This document shows, piece after piece, positions 1,742-13,900 of a stretch of DNA of 42,073 bases. Origin of the DNA: Erysipelotrichaceae bacterium. GTDB taxonomy: Bacteria > Bacillota_I > Bacilli_A > RFN20 > CAG-826. The stretch is taken from positions 1 to 42,073 of the forward strand of contig JAAYCD010000108.1 of NCBI GenBank assembly GCA_012744375.1, written 5' to 3'. The notes below the pieces were generated by a model that saw nothing but the letters and a program-made list of their open reading frames with translations, was not told the DNA's origin and did no database searches. Position 1 is the stretch's first letter, and every line of letters starts with the position of its first letter. A program made the translations under genes and the position numbers.

Positions 1742-3523
1742 TTACTTATTTTCGACTTTATAAATTAAACGATTGTTCACTTCGTTATCAATTAGCTTTA
1801 AGAACTCCTCAACCGAAACGGTGATTTGTTCGTTAACTCCAAAGCGACGATACGTCACTGTCTTATTATCTCTTTCTTGATCGCCAAGCACGAGAGTAAA
1901 AGGCACTTTTCTCATTTGCGAAGAGCGCATACGATAGCCTAACTTATCGTTAGAATCATCAAGTTTAACGCGTAAGCCACGTGCTTTGAAATCAGTGAAT
2001 AATTGTTTGGCATAATCAAGATGGAAAGCGTTATTAACTGGTAAAATATTAACTTGTAGTGGTGCAAGCCATGTTGGGAAAGCGCCACCAAAGTGTTCAA
2101 TAATAATACCGATAAATCTTTCAATGCTACCTAAACAAGCGCGATGGAGCATAATGGGGCGTTTCTTTTCGCCGTCGCCATCAATATAGAAGCAATCAAA
2201 TCTCTCAGGTAAATTCATATCGAGTTGGATCGTGCCACACTGCCAAATTCTACCCACAGAATCTTTTAGCTTAAAGTCAAGTTTTGGACCATAGAAAGCG
2301 CCATCGCCAGGATTAATCTTAAATTCGCGACCAGATTGTTGGCAAGCTTCCATTAAAATGGCCTCTGATTTATCCCAAGTTTTGATGTCGCCAATATAAC
2401 CTTCTTCTGGACGAGTTGATAAGACGATGTAATAGTCTAAATCAAAGATAGAATACATTTCTTCGAAGAACTTCAATAAGGTTGTAATTTCTTCAACTAA
2501 TTGGTCTTCACGGCAGAAAATATGCGCATCATCTTGTGTGAAAGCGCGCACTCTGAATAATCCGTTAAGCGCGCCACTTGCTTCGTGACGGTGGACGTGT
2601 CCAAGTTCCGCCATTCTAATTGGCAAATCTTTATAAGAATGAAGGGAATTTTTGTAAACCAAAATACTACCAGGACAGTTCATTGGTTTGATTGCAAAAT
2701 CGCGGTCATCAATTTTAGTAGTGTACATATTTTCTTTATACACAAACCAATGTCCAGATATTTCCCAAAGTTCACGGGATAACATGGTTGGTGTTTTAAT
2801 TAAAGAATAGTCATATTTGAAATGTTGTTCTTTCCAATATTTTTCAATATTCTCACGCAATATCATGCCATTAGGTAGCCAAAATGGGAAACCTGGTCCA
2901 TATTCAGAAAGGAAAAATAAACCGAGTTGTTTACCAAGCAAACGATGATCTCTTTTCTTGCGCTCTTCAATGAGATTCAAGTAATTTTTTAATTCTTCAT
3001 CAGTGTACCAAGAAGTACCATATATTCTTGTTAATTGCTTATTATTGCTATCACCGCGCCAATAAGCGCCAGCTAAAGATAATAGTTTAAAATGTTTAAT
3101 TAACGCTGTAGACATCAAGTGTGGTCCACGGCACAAATCGACAAATTCGCCTTGCGAAAAGATGGTGATGTCTTCATTAATTTCGCTGATGAGTTCAAGT
3201 TTATAAGGGTTATCTTTAAAAAGTTCTAATGCTTCTTGTTTATTAACGACATTTCTGACAATTTTTAAATCCTTACTTGCTAATTCTTTCATCTTCTTTT
3301 CAATGATAGGTAAGTCTTCTTCGACTAAGACTTTATCACCAAAATCAATGTCATAGTAAAAACCATTTTCAATCGCTGGACCAAAACCAAACTTCGCAAA
3401 AGGGTATAATTGTTTAACAGCTTGTGCTAATAGGTGGGATGTTGAATGGTTCAATACTTCTAACGCCTCCGGAGCGCTTTTTTCAATTTCAATAATTGAA
3501 CCATCATGTTGTTGTACTTTCAT
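1742..3523 (-). CDS. thrS: Threonyl-tRNA synthetase
   Basis: TGS domain, HSTSHLLAQAVK, catalytic and anticodon-binding domains. Start trimmed from track (3583) to ATG at 3523 preceded by GGAGGAAAG. Confidence 0.96.
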   Translation of the reverse strand: MKVQQHDGSIIEIEKSAPEALEVLNHSTSHLLAQAVKQLYPFAKFGFGPAIENGFYYDIDFGDKVLVEEDLPIIEKKMKELASKDLKIVRNVVNKQEALELFKDNPYKLELISEINEDITIFSQGEFVDLCRGPHLMSTALIKHFKLLSLAGAYWRGDSNNKQLTRIYGTSWYTDEELKNYLNLIEERKKRDHRLLGKQLGLFFLSEYGPGFPFWLPNGMILRENIEKYWKEQHFKYDYSLIKTPTMLSRELWEISGHWFVYKENMYTTKIDDRDFAIKPMNCPGSILVYKNSLHSYKDLPIRMAELGHVHRHEASGALNGLFRVRAFTQDDAHIFCREDQLVEEITTLLKFFEEMYSIFDLDYYIVLSTRPEEGYIGDIKTWDKSEAILMEACQQSGREFKINPGDGAFYGPKLDFKLKDSVGRIWQCGTIQLDMNLPERFDCFYIDGDGEKKRPIMLHRACLGSIERFIGIIIEHFGGAFPTWLAPLQVNILPVNNAFHLDYAKQLFTDFKARGLRVKLDDSNDKLGYRMRSSQMRKVPFTLVLGDQERDNKTVTYRRFGVNEQITVSVEEFLKLIDNEVNNRLIYKVENK

Positions 3524-6120: not shown

Positions 6121-7009
6121 AGTTACAAACTTAAACATCACCAGTGATGAAGCGATTATTCAAGAAATGAAACAATCGCTTAAAAACTGTCCTTCAGTCA
6201 TCAAGTATTGCAAAGACCTTGGCATGGATGAAAATACGATGTACGAAAACATCACGAAAATTTATGATTTAGTGCTCGATACAAACTATTGTAAAAAGTG
6301 CCCCGGCTTACAAAAATGCCAAAAAGATAATGCCTATTTGGTGACAAAAATTACATACAATAACAAAGTGGTGGAAAGCCAACTTGTTCCGTGTCCTGAA
6401 TTACTAAAAAGAATGAGTTTTGAAAAGCAATTAGTAGTCAGGGATTTTCCTGATGATTGGCTTGAAACATCATTATCAGATGTTGATAAATCAAAAAGCA
6501 AAACAGAAGCGATCAAGGCATATACCGCTTATGTTAAAAACGCTAGTAGCAACTGGATATATTTATTCGGAGGCATCGGAGCTGGTAAGTCTTTCTTAGC
6601 AGCGGCTTTTGCTATTGACATAGCTAAAAGATCGATTAAGGGCAAATCACCAGTCGCATTTATTAATGCGGCAAAAAGATTTTTGGAATTGAATGACCTA
6701 AACAAAACCAATAATAATGAATTTAAGTCAAAACTTGATTTTTATTGTAATATCCCATTTTTAGTCATCGATGACTTTGGTCATGAATTAAAAACTGATT
6801 TCATTCGCGACGCGATTTTAAGCGAAATCATTAACACGAGATGTAATAAAAAATTGTTCACCATTTTTACAAGCAACTTTTCATTAGTTGATATCGAAGC
6901 ACTTTATGGCACTAACAATGCACGCGCCATTATGGCAAAACAAATTGTTAAAACCATTAAATCAATGTGCATTAAAGAGATTGATTTAGGCGACTTAAAA
7001 CTTTATTAA
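6107..7009 (+). CDS. dnaI: Primosomal protein DnaI, helicase loader AAA+ ATPase
   Basis: Walker A FGGIGAGKSFLAAA, Walker B FLVIDDFGHE, N-terminal Cys cluster CKKCPGLQKC; overlaps dnaB by 14 nt with GGAGG. Confidence 0.92.
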   Translation: MEKLKVTNLNITSDEAIIQEMKQSLKNCPSVIKYCKDLGMDENTMYENITKIYDLVLDTNYCKKCPGLQKCQKDNAYLVTKITYNNKVVESQLVPCPELLKRMSFEKQLVVRDFPDDWLETSLSDVDKSKSKTEAIKAYTAYVKNASSNWIYLFGGIGAGKSFLAAAFAIDIAKRSIKGKSPVAFINAAKRFLELNDLNKTNNNEFKSKLDFYCNIPFLVIDDFGHELKTDFIRDAILSEIINTRCNKKLFTIFTSNFSLVDIEALYGTNNARAIMAKQIVKTIKSMCIKEIDLGDLKLY

Positions 7010-8387
7010 TAATTGTGTCTACCTGAGACACTAAATCTGCTTTATCCTTGTTGTTATCGATAATATAATCGAGATCGGCCAAATGCTCGAAAAATTGATG
7101 GTTATCATCATTGATGCGCTTGTTAAAGGCGCTTTTTTCTTTATCTCTTAAATTTAACCTATTTATTTGATTTTCTTCATTGATATCAACACCGATTATT
7201 ATGTCAAACATATTTTGCATTTTCGCTTTAAATAATAGAGGAACTTCAGCAACTAATAGTTTTGAGGTCGATGTTTCAAAAATATTAGTAATTTCATTTT
7301 TTACAAGTGGGTGTATAAATCTTTCTAGTTTTGCCAAATCTAACGGATGATGAGCGAGATGGTTTCTTAAATTCACGATAAAATCACCGTCTTCTGGAAG
7401 ATTGAATTTTTTATTAATTTTATTTTGAATGACTTTGTCTTTATAAAGTTGATGAACAATTGCATCAGAAGAAATCGCTAAAAATTTGTGTTTATTAAAA
7501 ATTTCTAGAACTGAACTTTTTCCTGAAGCAATTTTTCCAACAATTGCAATCTTTAGTGGTGGATGTTTTCTGGGCTGACAATTAGGACAATAAGTCGTTC
7601 CACGGCCACCGATTTTGATAAATCTAAGAAATCTGTGACATACGACACACTTTTGACCTTGTCGCCCATAAACTGCGAGTTGTGTTTGGAAATTACCAGA
7701 AATGTCTTTACCTGGATGATAGCTTCGAATAGTAGAGCCTCCGCTTTTAATCGCTTCTAACAAAACTAACTTAGAATATTTAACAACGTTTTCCCAATCT
7801 GACATTGAAAGACTTTTAGTTGGGGTAAGAGGATGTAACTCACTTTTGAAAAGCACTTCATCTACATAAATATTACCTAAGCCAACAAAAAGCTTTTGGC
7901 TAAGTAAAGAGGTCTTGATTGGCAAACCAATTTTTTGTCCTTTTTTATATAATAACGCGACGTCCTTAATATCAAATGGTTCTGGCCCTAACTCTTTAAG
8001 TGATTGAATATTTTGATAACTTGCCTCGTCAGCCATGATCATCCGTCCAAAACAACGCGAATCATCATAACAAAGTTTCATATTATTATCTAAATGGAAA
8101 ACAACACGCGCATATTTACTATTTTCAAAAGATTCTGGTAATTCATAATACTTACCTTCCATTCTTAAATGAGAGACAAGCACTTTGTTATCGCTTAAAT
8201 GGAAAATCAAAAACTTTCCTCGACGGGTAATATTAAGAAATTTAGATCCTTTCATGAATTTAATAAATTCATGTTCAAGGTTATTAACGATACTTTTTCG
8301 TAAAATATCCACTTTCAAAACTGTGCGATTTTTAATAATCGGCAATAAGACATTTTTTACAGTTTCTACTTCTGGAAGTTCTGGCAT
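6972..8387 (-). CDS. mutM-coaE: Fused formamidopyrimidine-DNA glycosylase / dephospho-CoA kinase
   Basis: One 471-aa ORF. N-terminal Fpg (MPELPEVETVK, LGNIYVDE, zinc finger CVVCHRF..GGRGTTYCPNC) runs into CoaE (LKIAIVGKIASGKSSVLE..., IHPLV, VPLLF). Confidence 0.93.
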   Translation of the reverse strand: MPELPEVETVKNVLLPIIKNRTVLKVDILRKSIVNNLEHEFIKFMKGSKFLNITRRGKFLIFHLSDNKVLVSHLRMEGKYYELPESFENSKYARVVFHLDNNMKLCYDDSRCFGRMIMADEASYQNIQSLKELGPEPFDIKDVALLYKKGQKIGLPIKTSLLSQKLFVGLGNIYVDEVLFKSELHPLTPTKSLSMSDWENVVKYSKLVLLEAIKSGGSTIRSYHPGKDISGNFQTQLAVYGRQGQKCVVCHRFLRFIKIGGRGTTYCPNCQPRKHPPLKIAIVGKIASGKSSVLEIFNKHKFLAISSDAIVHQLYKDKVIQNKINKKFNLPEDGDFIVNLRNHLAHHPLDLAKLERFIHPLVKNEITNIFETSTSKLLVAEVPLLFKAKMQNMFDIIIGVDINEENQINRLNLRDKEKSAFNKRINDDNHQFFEHLADLDYIIDNNKDKADLVSQVDTIINKVLSRLNQSL

Positions 8388-8391
8388 ATTA

Positions 8392-10989
8392 TTATTTAGC
8401 GCTATACCAATCTAAACCAAAACCACCATTAACTTCAAGTGGTATGCCTAGATTTAAAACGTTCTCCATAATGTTTTTAATTAAATCGAAAATCTGCTCT
8501 TTTTCTTCGCTAGGAACACGGAAAATTAGTTCGTCATGAATTTGAAGAACCATGCGTGTTTGATATCCCCCAGCTTCTAAAGCTTGGTGTATTTTTATCA
8601 TGGCTAGCTTAATCAAATCAGCAGCAGTACCTTGGACAGGTGCATTCATCGCAGCGCGTTTAGCTCCTTCTCTTTTTTGATAATTGGTGTCACTTAATTC
8701 TCTTAAATATCGTCTTCTGCCTAATAAGGTAGAAACATAACCATCCTTAAGAGCATCACTAACAATGCTATTAAAGAAATTTGCTACTTCTGGGAAATTA
8801 TGAAAAAATGCATCGATAATTGCTTTAGCTTCTTTTGGTGGAATGTCTAGTTGTTCGGCTAGCCCCCAATCAGAGATGCCATATACAACACCAAAATTTA
8901 CAGTTTTTGCTTTGCGTCTTTGCAAATCACTTGGTGATGATTGAAGGTTAAATAATTTCATTGCCGTTGCTGAATGAATATCTTGATTAGAAAGAAAAAT
9001 TTCTTTTAACGATTGACAATTTGAAAGCGCGGCCAAAACTCTTAATTCAATTTGCGAATAGTCAAAAGAAAGAATTTCAAATTGATGGTTTGGATAATAG
9101 AAAGCTTTTCTGATCGCCTTACCTTCTTCAAATCTAACTGAGATATTTTGAATATTTGGGTCAGAAGCAGACAATCGACCAGTGGTGGTCAATGCTTGAT
9201 TAAACTTAGGATGGATTTTACCATCGGGATAAATATGATGTTTTAATCCTTCCACATATGTAGTCAATAACTTAAAGTATTTGCGATATTCTAAAATTTT
9301 CTCAACAACTGGATGCTCGTCAATTATATCATTAAGTGAATCGACGGCCGTCGACAACTTCCGATTACTTGATAAGCCAAGTTTATTGAACAAGATATCA
9401 GCGATTTGTTTTGGCGAAGCAAGATTAAACATTTCGCCGACCATATCAAATATCTCGTTTGAAAGTTCATCGAGCTTTTGCTGATATGTTTCGCCAAAAT
9501 GTTGAAGAACGTTTATGTCCAATGGGAAACCCTCAATTTCCATATCGGCGAGAGTATCGACTAATGGAATTTCTAACTCTTCAAATAGTCTAAATAATTC
9601 CATCTTTTCTAACTCTTCTTGGATTTTTCTTGTTAATTTCATGGTAAAAAATGCAATTCTACAACTTCTTTCGATGTCTTCGGCAGTGAACAAAGATAAA
9701 GTTTCAACACCATTTCCTAAATCAACACCATGAATATTCATGACGACTTGAACATCGTTTTTGATTGTGGAATCTAATAGATAAGAAGCGATCAATAAAT
9801 CAAACTTTAAGCCACTAATCGCAATATCGTTTTTATTTAATGCGACTTTGATGGCTTTATAGTCAAAGCAATATTTTTGTATGGCTTTATCTTTTAATAT
9901 CTCTAAAGCAACTGGGTCACTTTTTAAGTCTTCAATTTTTAAATAATAAGAAATTTCACCATTAGAAAATGCCATGCCATAAAGCGACCCTAATGTATAA
10001 TTATCGTCTTGATAATCTAAGGCAATACCAATTTGTTTATCAAATTTAATGCCTTTGAGCGAACTAACAACCTTGATTGGTACTTCAACTTTAGCAAGGT
10101 CAGATTTCTTCCACTTAGGACTTAAGCGCGCAATGAATTGTTTCAGCCCATATTTTTGTGCAAAAGCACTTACGGCCGTAAATTCATAACCGCGATAAAT
10201 GGTGTCTTCTATACTAAAAGGTAAATCAACATCTGTTCTAATAATGGCTAAATCACGCGATAATCTCCCGATATCCTTTTGCTCTTTCAAAGATTCTCCA
10301 ATCTTGCCGTTTATTTCGTCAGCATGAGCGACGATATTATCAAACGAACCATACTGTTTGATGAGCTTAACAGCTGTGACATTACCAATTCCCTTAATGC
10401 CAGGAATATTGTCACTATCGTCACCTCTAAGCCCTTTATAGTCAACGATTTGTTCTGGAGCAAAGCCATAAGTTTCTTCGACTAGTTTAGGGGTCATAGT
10501 GACGACATCAGATAAGCCTTTTTTTATAATATTGACGGAAATCTTTTCGCTCACCAATTGTAAAAAATCGCGATCAGAAGTATATATGACAACTTCATAA
10601 CCAGCCTTTTCCGCTTTCTTTGCAACCGTGCCCGCAATGTCATCACCTTCAAATCCATCTTGTTCGTAAGTGAAAATATTAAGAGCGTTAAGCATTTCTC
10701 GTGCAATTGGAAACTGTTGGACAAGTTCTTCTGGAGTCGGTTTACGGTGAATTTTATATGTATCTAGCAAATCGTTTCTAAAAGTGTCTTTACCTGTATC
10801 GAAAGCAACTATGATACCTTCATCCTCTTTTAATTTTCCTAAGATTTTGTTTATCATCGTCGAAAAAGTAAAAATCGCGTTAGTCGGAATGCCTTCCTGA
10901 TTACGCATAATTTCCATACCAGGATAAGCAGTAGCAAAGTACGCTCTAAATAGTAATGAATTACCATCAATGATTGTTATTTTACTCAT
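8392..10989 (-). CDS. polA: DNA polymerase I
   Basis: 5' nuclease domain (DGNSLLFRAYF, RGDDSDNIPGIKGIG) and pol domain (DYSQIELRVLAAL, QIHDELIF). Start trimmed to ATG 10989. Confidence 0.96.
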   Translation of the reverse strand: MSKITIIDGNSLLFRAYFATAYPGMEIMRNQEGIPTNAIFTFSTMINKILGKLKEDEGIIVAFDTGKDTFRNDLLDTYKIHRKPTPEELVQQFPIAREMLNALNIFTYEQDGFEGDDIAGTVAKKAEKAGYEVVIYTSDRDFLQLVSEKISVNIIKKGLSDVVTMTPKLVEETYGFAPEQIVDYKGLRGDDSDNIPGIKGIGNVTAVKLIKQYGSFDNIVAHADEINGKIGESLKEQKDIGRLSRDLAIIRTDVDLPFSIEDTIYRGYEFTAVSAFAQKYGLKQFIARLSPKWKKSDLAKVEVPIKVVSSLKGIKFDKQIGIALDYQDDNYTLGSLYGMAFSNGEISYYLKIEDLKSDPVALEILKDKAIQKYCFDYKAIKVALNKNDIAISGLKFDLLIASYLLDSTIKNDVQVVMNIHGVDLGNGVETLSLFTAEDIERSCRIAFFTMKLTRKIQEELEKMELFRLFEELEIPLVDTLADMEIEGFPLDINVLQHFGETYQQKLDELSNEIFDMVGEMFNLASPKQIADILFNKLGLSSNRKLSTAVDSLNDIIDEHPVVEKILEYRKYFKLLTTYVEGLKHHIYPDGKIHPKFNQALTTTGRLSASDPNIQNISVRFEEGKAIRKAFYYPNHQFEILSFDYSQIELRVLAALSNCQSLKEIFLSNQDIHSATAMKLFNLQSSPSDLQRRKAKTVNFGVVYGISDWGLAEQLDIPPKEAKAIIDAFFHNFPEVANFFNSIVSDALKDGYVSTLLGRRRYLRELSDTNYQKREGAKRAAMNAPVQGTAADLIKLAMIKIHQALEAGGYQTRMVLQIHDELIFRVPSEEKEQIFDLIKNIMENVLNLGIPLEVNGGFGLDWYSAK

Positions 10990-13900
10990 AAATTTCGTCC
11001 TCCAATGGAGTAATGTTGTTAGCGATGAAGGTAGTTTCTTCATCTCTTCTATCACGTTTAATTTCACACACGACCAGGTTGTTTTTTTCTAATAAAGACA
11101 CAGCCTCGGCATAAAGCACTGGGAAAACAATAATTTCCATTTCGTCGGTCTCATCTAATAACTTAACAAAGGCCATGGTTGTTCCTTTTTTGGTATTAAT
11201 CTTTTTGATAGCTCTTATTAAGCCAGCAATTTTAGCTTTGTTTGTTTGCTTAGCTTCAACGATAGGCGTTACTTCTTTTTCAACTAGTAAATGTTGTTTA
11301 TAGTGCAACGGATTACTAGAAAGCATCATTCCTAATACTTCATATTCTTTTTCTAAATTTTCCAGCGGGTCATCTTTTTGCTCAATAATGTAAGGTGCTA
11401 AATATGGAGAAAAGCCAATATTAAGTTGACCATTATCTTGATAAGTAAGTTCCGCATATTGTAAGGCACTTTTGATCGTCGCTCTCAGCGAAGCGCGAGA
11501 AGCAGTAAAGCAATCAAAGCAACCCGCATCAATAAGTTTTGTTAATTGTTCTTCAGTAAGTTTGTTTTGATACATCCGTGAGACAAAATCAAAAAAGTCG
11601 CTAAATGGTTTGTCATTTCTTTCAGTCAAGATGTTATCTACTAATATGTTATTAATGCCCTTAATTGCATTGAGTGGGAATAGTAAACCACCTTCTGAAA
11701 TCTTAAAACTCTTTGAAGATAAATTGATGTGCGGTGAAATAATTTTAATGTCGCGCTTCTTCATCTCGCTTACGTACTCGTTAAATTTTGTGTCACTCGT
11801 GCCACTAGCGGTTTCTAAAATAGCAGCATAAAACTGTAAAGGGTAATGCAATTTTAAAAAGGCTGTCCGACATGTGATCACCGCATAAACAGAAGCGTGC
11901 GACTTATTAAAAGCGTAATCTGCAAATTTTCTAATCGTTTCAAACACTTTGCGCGCTACTTTTTCCTCATGGCCATTCTTTAATGAGCCTTGAATAAAAA
12001 GTCGTTCATTATTTGCAAATTGCTCAGCATCTTTTTTGCTTATAGCTCTTCTAAACAAATCGGCTTCGGCCATGGAAAATCCTGCCATTGTTCTCGCAAT
12101 TTCATTTACTTGTTCTTGATAAACAATAATGCCATAAGTTGATTTTAATATTGGTTCTAAACACGGATCATCATATGTAATGGCCTCTTTACCTTCTTTT
12201 CTTCTTCCGTATGAAGGAATTGAATCCATAGGACCTGGTCTATATAAAGCCAATAGTGCTACCACGTCGTCAAAACAACTTGGTTTAAGTAAACTAATCG
12301 CTCTTTTTATACCTGAACTTTCAAGTTGGAAAATGCCCATTGTTTGATTAGAGGCAATTAAGTTAAAGACGCCATTATCATTAAACGGAATATTAAACTT
12401 ATCGATAATTGGTTGATCTTTTCCTTCGTTAATTAGGTCAACGCAATAGGCAATAGTCGTTAAGTTTCTTAAAGATAAAAAGTCAATTTTTAAAAACCCT
12501 TGGTCTTCCAAATAGTTTAATTCATACTGCGAAATATAATGACCAGCAAAATCAGTAGTTAAAGGCAAGACTTCTTCAAGTGGACCATTATTCAAAATCA
12601 CCCCAGCTGGGTGCAATCCATTTTGTCTAATCAAACCTTCGATTTTGCTTGCTAAAGACACAATCGTTAAAAAATAGTCATCACTATCGACAAGTTTCCT
12701 AAACTCAGGCAGTTGTTTGTATGATTCTTTTAAGGACAGTTTTGGGTTTGATAAACGTTTACTTAATAAGTCAATATGACGCGTTGGGTAATTGTAAACA
12801 CGACCGATATCTCTAAGAGATTGCTTGGCCTGAATAGTTTGATAAGTAACGATATTAGCCACGCGACTATTGCCATATTTTTCTCTAACATATTCAACAA
12901 CATCATTACGACTAATATCCATGAAGTCGATATCAATATCAGGCATAGTTTGTCGAAAAGGATTTAAAAATCTTTCGAATTGTAATTCTTCTTTTATGGG
13001 GTCGATTTCTGTTATATCGAGCAAATAGGACACTAAACTTCCAGCGGCGCTACCACGTCCTGGTCCAACTAAGATACGATTATTTTTAGCGTAAGAAATA
13101 AAATCTTGAACGATTAGAAAATAATCTGCATACCCCAGTTTAGAAATTGTTTCTACTTCATAACTTAATCTTTTTTTGTATATTTCAAATTGATTTAAAC
13201 CTTTATTTTTGAGACTTTCCTCACAAAGCAACTTAAGATTCTCTGAGGAATTAGAAACAGGAAAACGCATTAGTTCACCGCGCTTTTGATGGAATGAAAA
13301 ATTGACTGAATCTAAGATTGCTTTAGTGGTTGCAATTTCATTTGTAGTGTATATCTTAGAATAGTTTTTATAGGTCATGAAATAGTCTTGACCAATCAAA
13401 CTTTTTTCTTTCAATACCTCGTCTTTATCTTCTTTGGCAATTGCTTCTGCAATTGCTAAAACGATTGCATCATCGCTTTTTAAATAACGGATTTTTGGAA
13501 AAGCGACCGATCGATAAGGATGGTTATCAAGAAAATTTCTAATCTCATTAGCGTATTTTACTTCTTCTTTGCTAGTAACGGAAATTCCTAAATAAAAGTT
13601 GTTCTTAAATAAGGCATCATATTGATACAGCAGCCTATTTAACTTTTCTTTGTCTTCTTGAAATGCCGCTTTGAACTTGTCATTGGATGTTTCAATAATA
13701 CAAATTAAACCTTCGCAATAATCCTTAAGTAATTGTTCGGAAAAGGTTTGGCTATTAATCGCAGTGGTCAGCTTCATTAAATGACGATAACCAATTTCAT
13801 TTTGAACATATAAGCATAAAACATCATCGTTCACGATAATTTCCATACCGATGATGTAAGGGCGAGACAATTCTTCAGCGACTTTTACAAAAGCTGGGAC

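Follow-up and report, generated by a model that had tools for sequence, protein, structure and literature searches.

Introduction

The DNA-repair enzyme Fpg (MutM) and CoaE, the last enzyme of CoA synthesis, are usually made from neighbouring genes. In the polA-mutM-coaE region of Bacilli the same two enzymes are encoded in the same order as in the fused gene described here, with short spacing or overlap, but about 45 named loci (Bacillus, Paenibacillus, Lactobacillaceae, Streptococcus, Staphylococcus and others) are all split, and the split genes, unlike the fusion, mostly keep a coaE start of their own. The same gene pair forms a GeneTack frame-transition cluster, 'DNA glycosylase / Dephospho-CoA kinase', for which reporter tests in E. 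coli indicate that frameshifting and translational coupling may both occur (PMC3711429); there the two products would be joined during expression, whereas here the join is encoded in one open reading frame (ORF). CoaE fusions with other partners are already known. The HAD-DPCK protein of Hominis-group Mycoplasma likewise has two domains (~445 aa), a C-terminal CoaE and a home in reduced genomes, but its partner is a HAD-like phosphatase domain and not a DNA glycosylase (PMC8721197). Mycobacterial CoaE-UPF0157, in which CoaE is N-terminal rather than C-terminal as here, and the animal CoA synthase (PPAT-DPCK) are also natural fusions, again with other partners (PMC2765170). One published passage is a possible earlier sight of the present fusion, although its paper does not call it one. 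The points of interest are the recurrence of the fusion and a change of the kinase lid that is shared by a whole clade. There is also a practical consequence, in that annotation naming such proteins Fpg only will miss CoaE in these organisms.

The fused gene

The window analysed here is a stretch of 42,073 nucleotides, contig C92 in the 121-contig, 1.13 Mb draft genome of an uncultured bacterium. On its minus strand a single ORF, mutM::coaE (6972-8387), runs from an ATG at 8387 to a stop at 6972 and encodes 471 residues without interruption; it is supported by the ORF list, by profile matches and by relatives that are also fused. The preliminary description had proposed that Fpg and CoaE form one ORF, and the profiles bear this out. 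TIGR00577 (NCBIfam fpg) matches residues 1-271 with E 9e-80 and 267.9 bits against a curated cut-off of 203.3, and TIGR00152 (NCBIfam dephospho-CoA kinase) matches residues 280-457 with E 1e-27 and 97 bits against a curated cut-off of 65.55; Pfam agrees, with Fpg N-terminal, H2TH and zinc-finger domains followed by CoaE (PF01121, 81.2 against a cut-off of 27). The Fpg half accordingly comprises residues 1-271 (7575-8387, minus strand; TIGR00577, alignment and structure model), and its zinc finger spans residues 244-273 (7569-7658, minus strand; PF06827 above cut-off). The CoaE half comprises residues 279-471 (6975-7553, minus strand; TIGR00152, PF01121 and a domain model).

At the junction the zinc-finger motif CPNCQ is followed by PRKHPPLK and then by the P-loop GKIASGKS (residues 284-291; 7515-7538, minus strand; placed by alignment). 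The linker itself is short, about seven residues (PRKHPPL, residues 272-278; 7554-7574, minus strand), and is confidently modelled (pLDDT ~94) within a whole-protein model of pLDDT 94 and pTM 0.88. The distance from CxxCQ to the P-loop is 12 residues in 50 of 88 fused proteins. Directly upstream, with 4 nt between, lies polA (8392-11067, minus strand; from the ORF list and named from its translation). At the other end dnaI, also named from its translation, is convergent with the fused gene, and the 3' ends of the two overlap by 38 bases (6972-7009).

In the window gene CTA stands where a CoaE start codon would be expected, and an in-frame ATG, GTG or TTG is absent between codons 209 and 338. 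Because the P-loop begins at residue 284, no free intact CoaE could be initiated with these codons; a CoaE start inside the gene was rejected on this ground, and the earlier proposal that CoaE is made only as a fusion is supported. The same loss is seen more widely when start signals are counted as an ATG no more than 14 codons before the CoaE P-loop and a Shine-Dalgarno match of at least 5 bases. The ATG is present in 71 of 81 split genes versus 2 of 61 order-level fusions and 4 of 27 other fusions; for the Shine-Dalgarno match the corresponding counts are 51/81, 1/61 and 1/27. One fused ORF, L133 (2037-3500), still holds AAGGAG and an ATG at the CoaE start, and its nearest row in the tree (L134) is split; the L133 fusion is apparently young.

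Distribution and recurrence of the fusion

Examination of related genomes for the same architecture, as the preliminary description had suggested, revealed the full fusion in nearly all same-genus and same-family genomes that have the locus. Within the order, families f3, f5 and f2 are also fused, the genes are split neighbours in f6 and f8, and in f4 coaE is elsewhere or lacking. Fused genes occur as well in families f12, f16, f19, f25, f26, f27 and f28, and split genes accompany them there or in sister families; these wider families come from class-wide and phylum-wide samples checked on fetched DNA, and since the fetched loci were picked by matches to the fusion, their counts are no measure of prevalence. 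The fused relatives that carry names are uncultured Bacilli, for example Erysipelotrichales HAN092 and goat-rumen Bacilli RGIG3500. Independent genomes at the genus, family and order level carry the same fused ORF, which excludes chance or assembly error as its source, and an assembly artefact was rejected for this reason. A fused ORF in family f28 (L105, genome G319, 2037-3473) has an in-frame stop within its Fpg part, and is either a pseudogene or an assembly error.

In a tree of 175 concatenated Fpg and CoaE loci, the fused or split state changes at least 13 times, with 10 changes forced by well-supported branches; the tree is built from the two domains and is not a species tree, and some of these changes could be fissions. 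A single clade holding all fusions is rejected by the AU test (p = 7.7e-5, in a 58-row set with all fused rows held together). Given at least 13 state changes and the rejection of a single fused clade, the fusion is recurrent: it is genuine and of long standing, and it evolved on several occasions within the phylum. One split row, L172, is nested in family f1 and could be read as a true fission, but this was rejected as its CoaE frame has no P-loop; the locus is probably damaged or misassembled.

Gene order in the split relatives matches that of the fusion, with coaE often right after the mutM stop; several of these pairs share a frame and are parted by a single stop. No excess of such in-frame, one-stop pairs is claimed, since these loci were chosen by in-frame matches.

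Residues and models of the two halves

In an alignment of 52 fused proteins, P2, E3, E6, K58, N172 and R262 of the Fpg half, which include the N-terminal Pro (P2), the catalytic Lys (K58) and the zinc-finger Arg (R262), are invariant, as are the zinc-finger residues C247, C267 and C270, with C250 conserved in at least 90%. The model of this half superimposes on the MutM structure 3jr5 with a TM score of 0.94 by target. The Fpg half is thus predicted from its residues and fold to have glycosylase activity, and would be an active 8-oxoguanine/Fapy DNA glycosylase.

For the CoaE half, the AlphaFold domain model is closest to dephospho-CoA kinase 8dv0 (TM 0.84), and its best 30 matches are all dephospho-CoA kinases or CoA synthase. 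G284, G289 and K290 do not vary among the 88 fused and 86 split CoaEs, and Asp308 (7464-7466, minus strand; placed by alignment and PMC2765170) is present in every fused and split row. Asp308 is the second Asp of the DXD motif, the first being replaced by Ser306; in M. tuberculosis CoaE the second Asp, Asp32, is the proposed general base (PMC2765170). The altered motifs noted earlier are confirmed in the window CoaE, which has SSD for DAD (with the second Asp retained), FK for FE, and no lid Gln. The lid region (residues 404-446; 7050-7178, minus strand; by alignment) is remodelled, such that Asn429 and His435, like Ser306 in the DXD motif, stand in place of the lid Gln, lid Lys and first Asp that are usual in the CoaE family rather than proven to be required. 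Lid Gln144 of M. tuberculosis CoaE is thought to help hold the phosphates of dephospho-CoA (PMC2765170); the window lid site would correspond to Gln144 by its place in RIxxQ, with an ambiguity of one residue in the lid alignment.

These lid changes extend across a clade. Among split CoaEs the lid Gln is present in 85/86, the lid Lys in 82/86 and Glu387 in 86/86, and nearly all other fusions keep these residues as the split Bacilli do, whereas the clade formed by families f1, f3 and f5 has lost both lid Gln and lid Lys, and often Glu387 and Arg410 as well. In the same clade Tyr315 is invariant (48/48). With a near-invariant Gln and Lys missing, kinase activity should not simply be assumed. Loss of the lid residues as a result of fusion is not supported, since fused lineages outside this clade nearly all have the lid, and the split CoaEs of f6 and f8 show partial lid changes. 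Of the drift of the kinase that had been considered possible, the loss of lid residues stands, across f1, f3 and f5, but decay does not: dN/dS in the CoaE half is 0.06-0.27 (15 close pairs), and this purifying selection, together with the kept P-loop and catalytic Asp, indicates a domain that is not decaying. The solved Rickettsia felis CoaE also has Cys-Ala-Asp for DAD, as well as an LY-x-D stretch like that of the window CoaE.

The CoA pathway in the genome and its relatives

A second CoaE, the search for which had been proposed at the outset, was not found in the source genome, nor was the archaeal-type kinase PF04019 found in 59 relatives; both were rejected as alternative enzymes. CoaD and CoaE are both above cut-off in 31 of 37 near-complete relatives, and PPTase is present in all 37. 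Two genomes, G026 and G053, have the fusion but lack a clear CoaD. In nearly all relatives (G000-G058) coaBC is missing, though coaD, coaE and PPTase are kept, a pattern pointing to possible uptake of a late CoA precursor. Mycoplasmas have been proposed to salvage 4'-phosphopantetheine or pantetheine (PMC8721197), and the essential absence of coaBC fits such salvage here. As judged from gene content, the salvage route in this genome would run through CoaD and then CoaE.

In family f4 (G037, G044, G049, G054) Fpg is unfused; coaE is elsewhere in G044 and G054, and both coaE and coaD are absent from G037 and G049, so that CoA salvage seems to have been lost in some members. No CoaE match was found in genomes of group g162, taken as phytoplasmas on account of their size and family.

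Discussion

The explanation that most likely accounts for these results is one bifunctional Fpg/dephospho-CoA kinase with a remodelled lid, which would be the cell's only CoaE and would end a CoaD-CoaE salvage route. The kinase of the f1, f3 and f5 clade has kept its P-loop and catalytic Asp while swapping lid residues, and the CoaE half would phosphorylate dephospho-CoA as the cell's only dephospho-CoA kinase, finishing salvage after CoaD. A sole CoA-finishing kinase that lacks the presumed substrate-contacting lid residues could help to show which CoaE residues are needed. We consider it unlikely that the CoaE half of this clade is instead another small-molecule kinase, or a nucleotide-binding accessory to Fpg, with CoA obtained in another way. 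The loss of lid Gln429 and Lys435, of the first Asp and often of Glu387 and Arg410 is what such a change of function might leave behind, as is the invariant Tyr315, and the few genomes with the fusion but no clear CoaD point the same way; however, the invariant P-loop and Asp308 under purifying selection, the fold closest to dephospho-CoA kinases, and the lack of any alternative CoaE candidate while CoaD and the CoA-using PPTase persist all argue for the dephospho-CoA kinase, and the Rickettsia structure has comparable departures from DAD. Also improbable is a CoaE, remodelled across the clade, whose function depends on being the C-terminal half of Fpg or is altered by it; other residues or the glycosylase half would then stand in for the lid, or else the kinase would have a new substrate, and the protein would be a true repair-metabolism bifunctional enzyme.

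With regard to origin, it is hardly credible that the fusion is an artefact or that the fused frame still yields a separate CoaE: the window genome is a draft in many contigs, and L133 keeps its signals at the CoaE start, but independent genomes have the same fusion and the window gene offers no in-frame start between codons 209 and 338. An adaptive fusion, which couples oxidative DNA repair to the level of CoA as a redox thiol or localises CoaE at DNA, would be consistent with repeated independent fusion, with linkers that are short and conserved in length, and with the rise of CoaE in B. subtilis when the 8-oxoG repair system is missing (PMC10968225). We nevertheless regard it as very unlikely, as the pair are already operon neighbours, often in frame with one stop, so that few mutations are needed, and other fusions occur without a matching active-site change. 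Since the fusion recurs from a tightly spaced operon, a neutral origin is no less likely than the link between repair and CoA stoichiometry raised in the preliminary description, and we infer that the origin was mostly non-adaptive. That the same two unrelated operon neighbours fuse repeatedly lets one ask whether function, or spacing alone, drives such joins in reduced genomes. The tightly spaced mutM-coaE pair would have fused when the mutM stop was lost, and the coaE start and its ribosome-binding site would have decayed afterwards. Fusion by stop and start loss, as first proposed, is supported by the shared gene order of the split relatives and by the missing coaE start and ribosome-binding site of the fusions; the order of events, stop loss before decay of the start signals, fits their disappearance from most fusions and their retention in L133.
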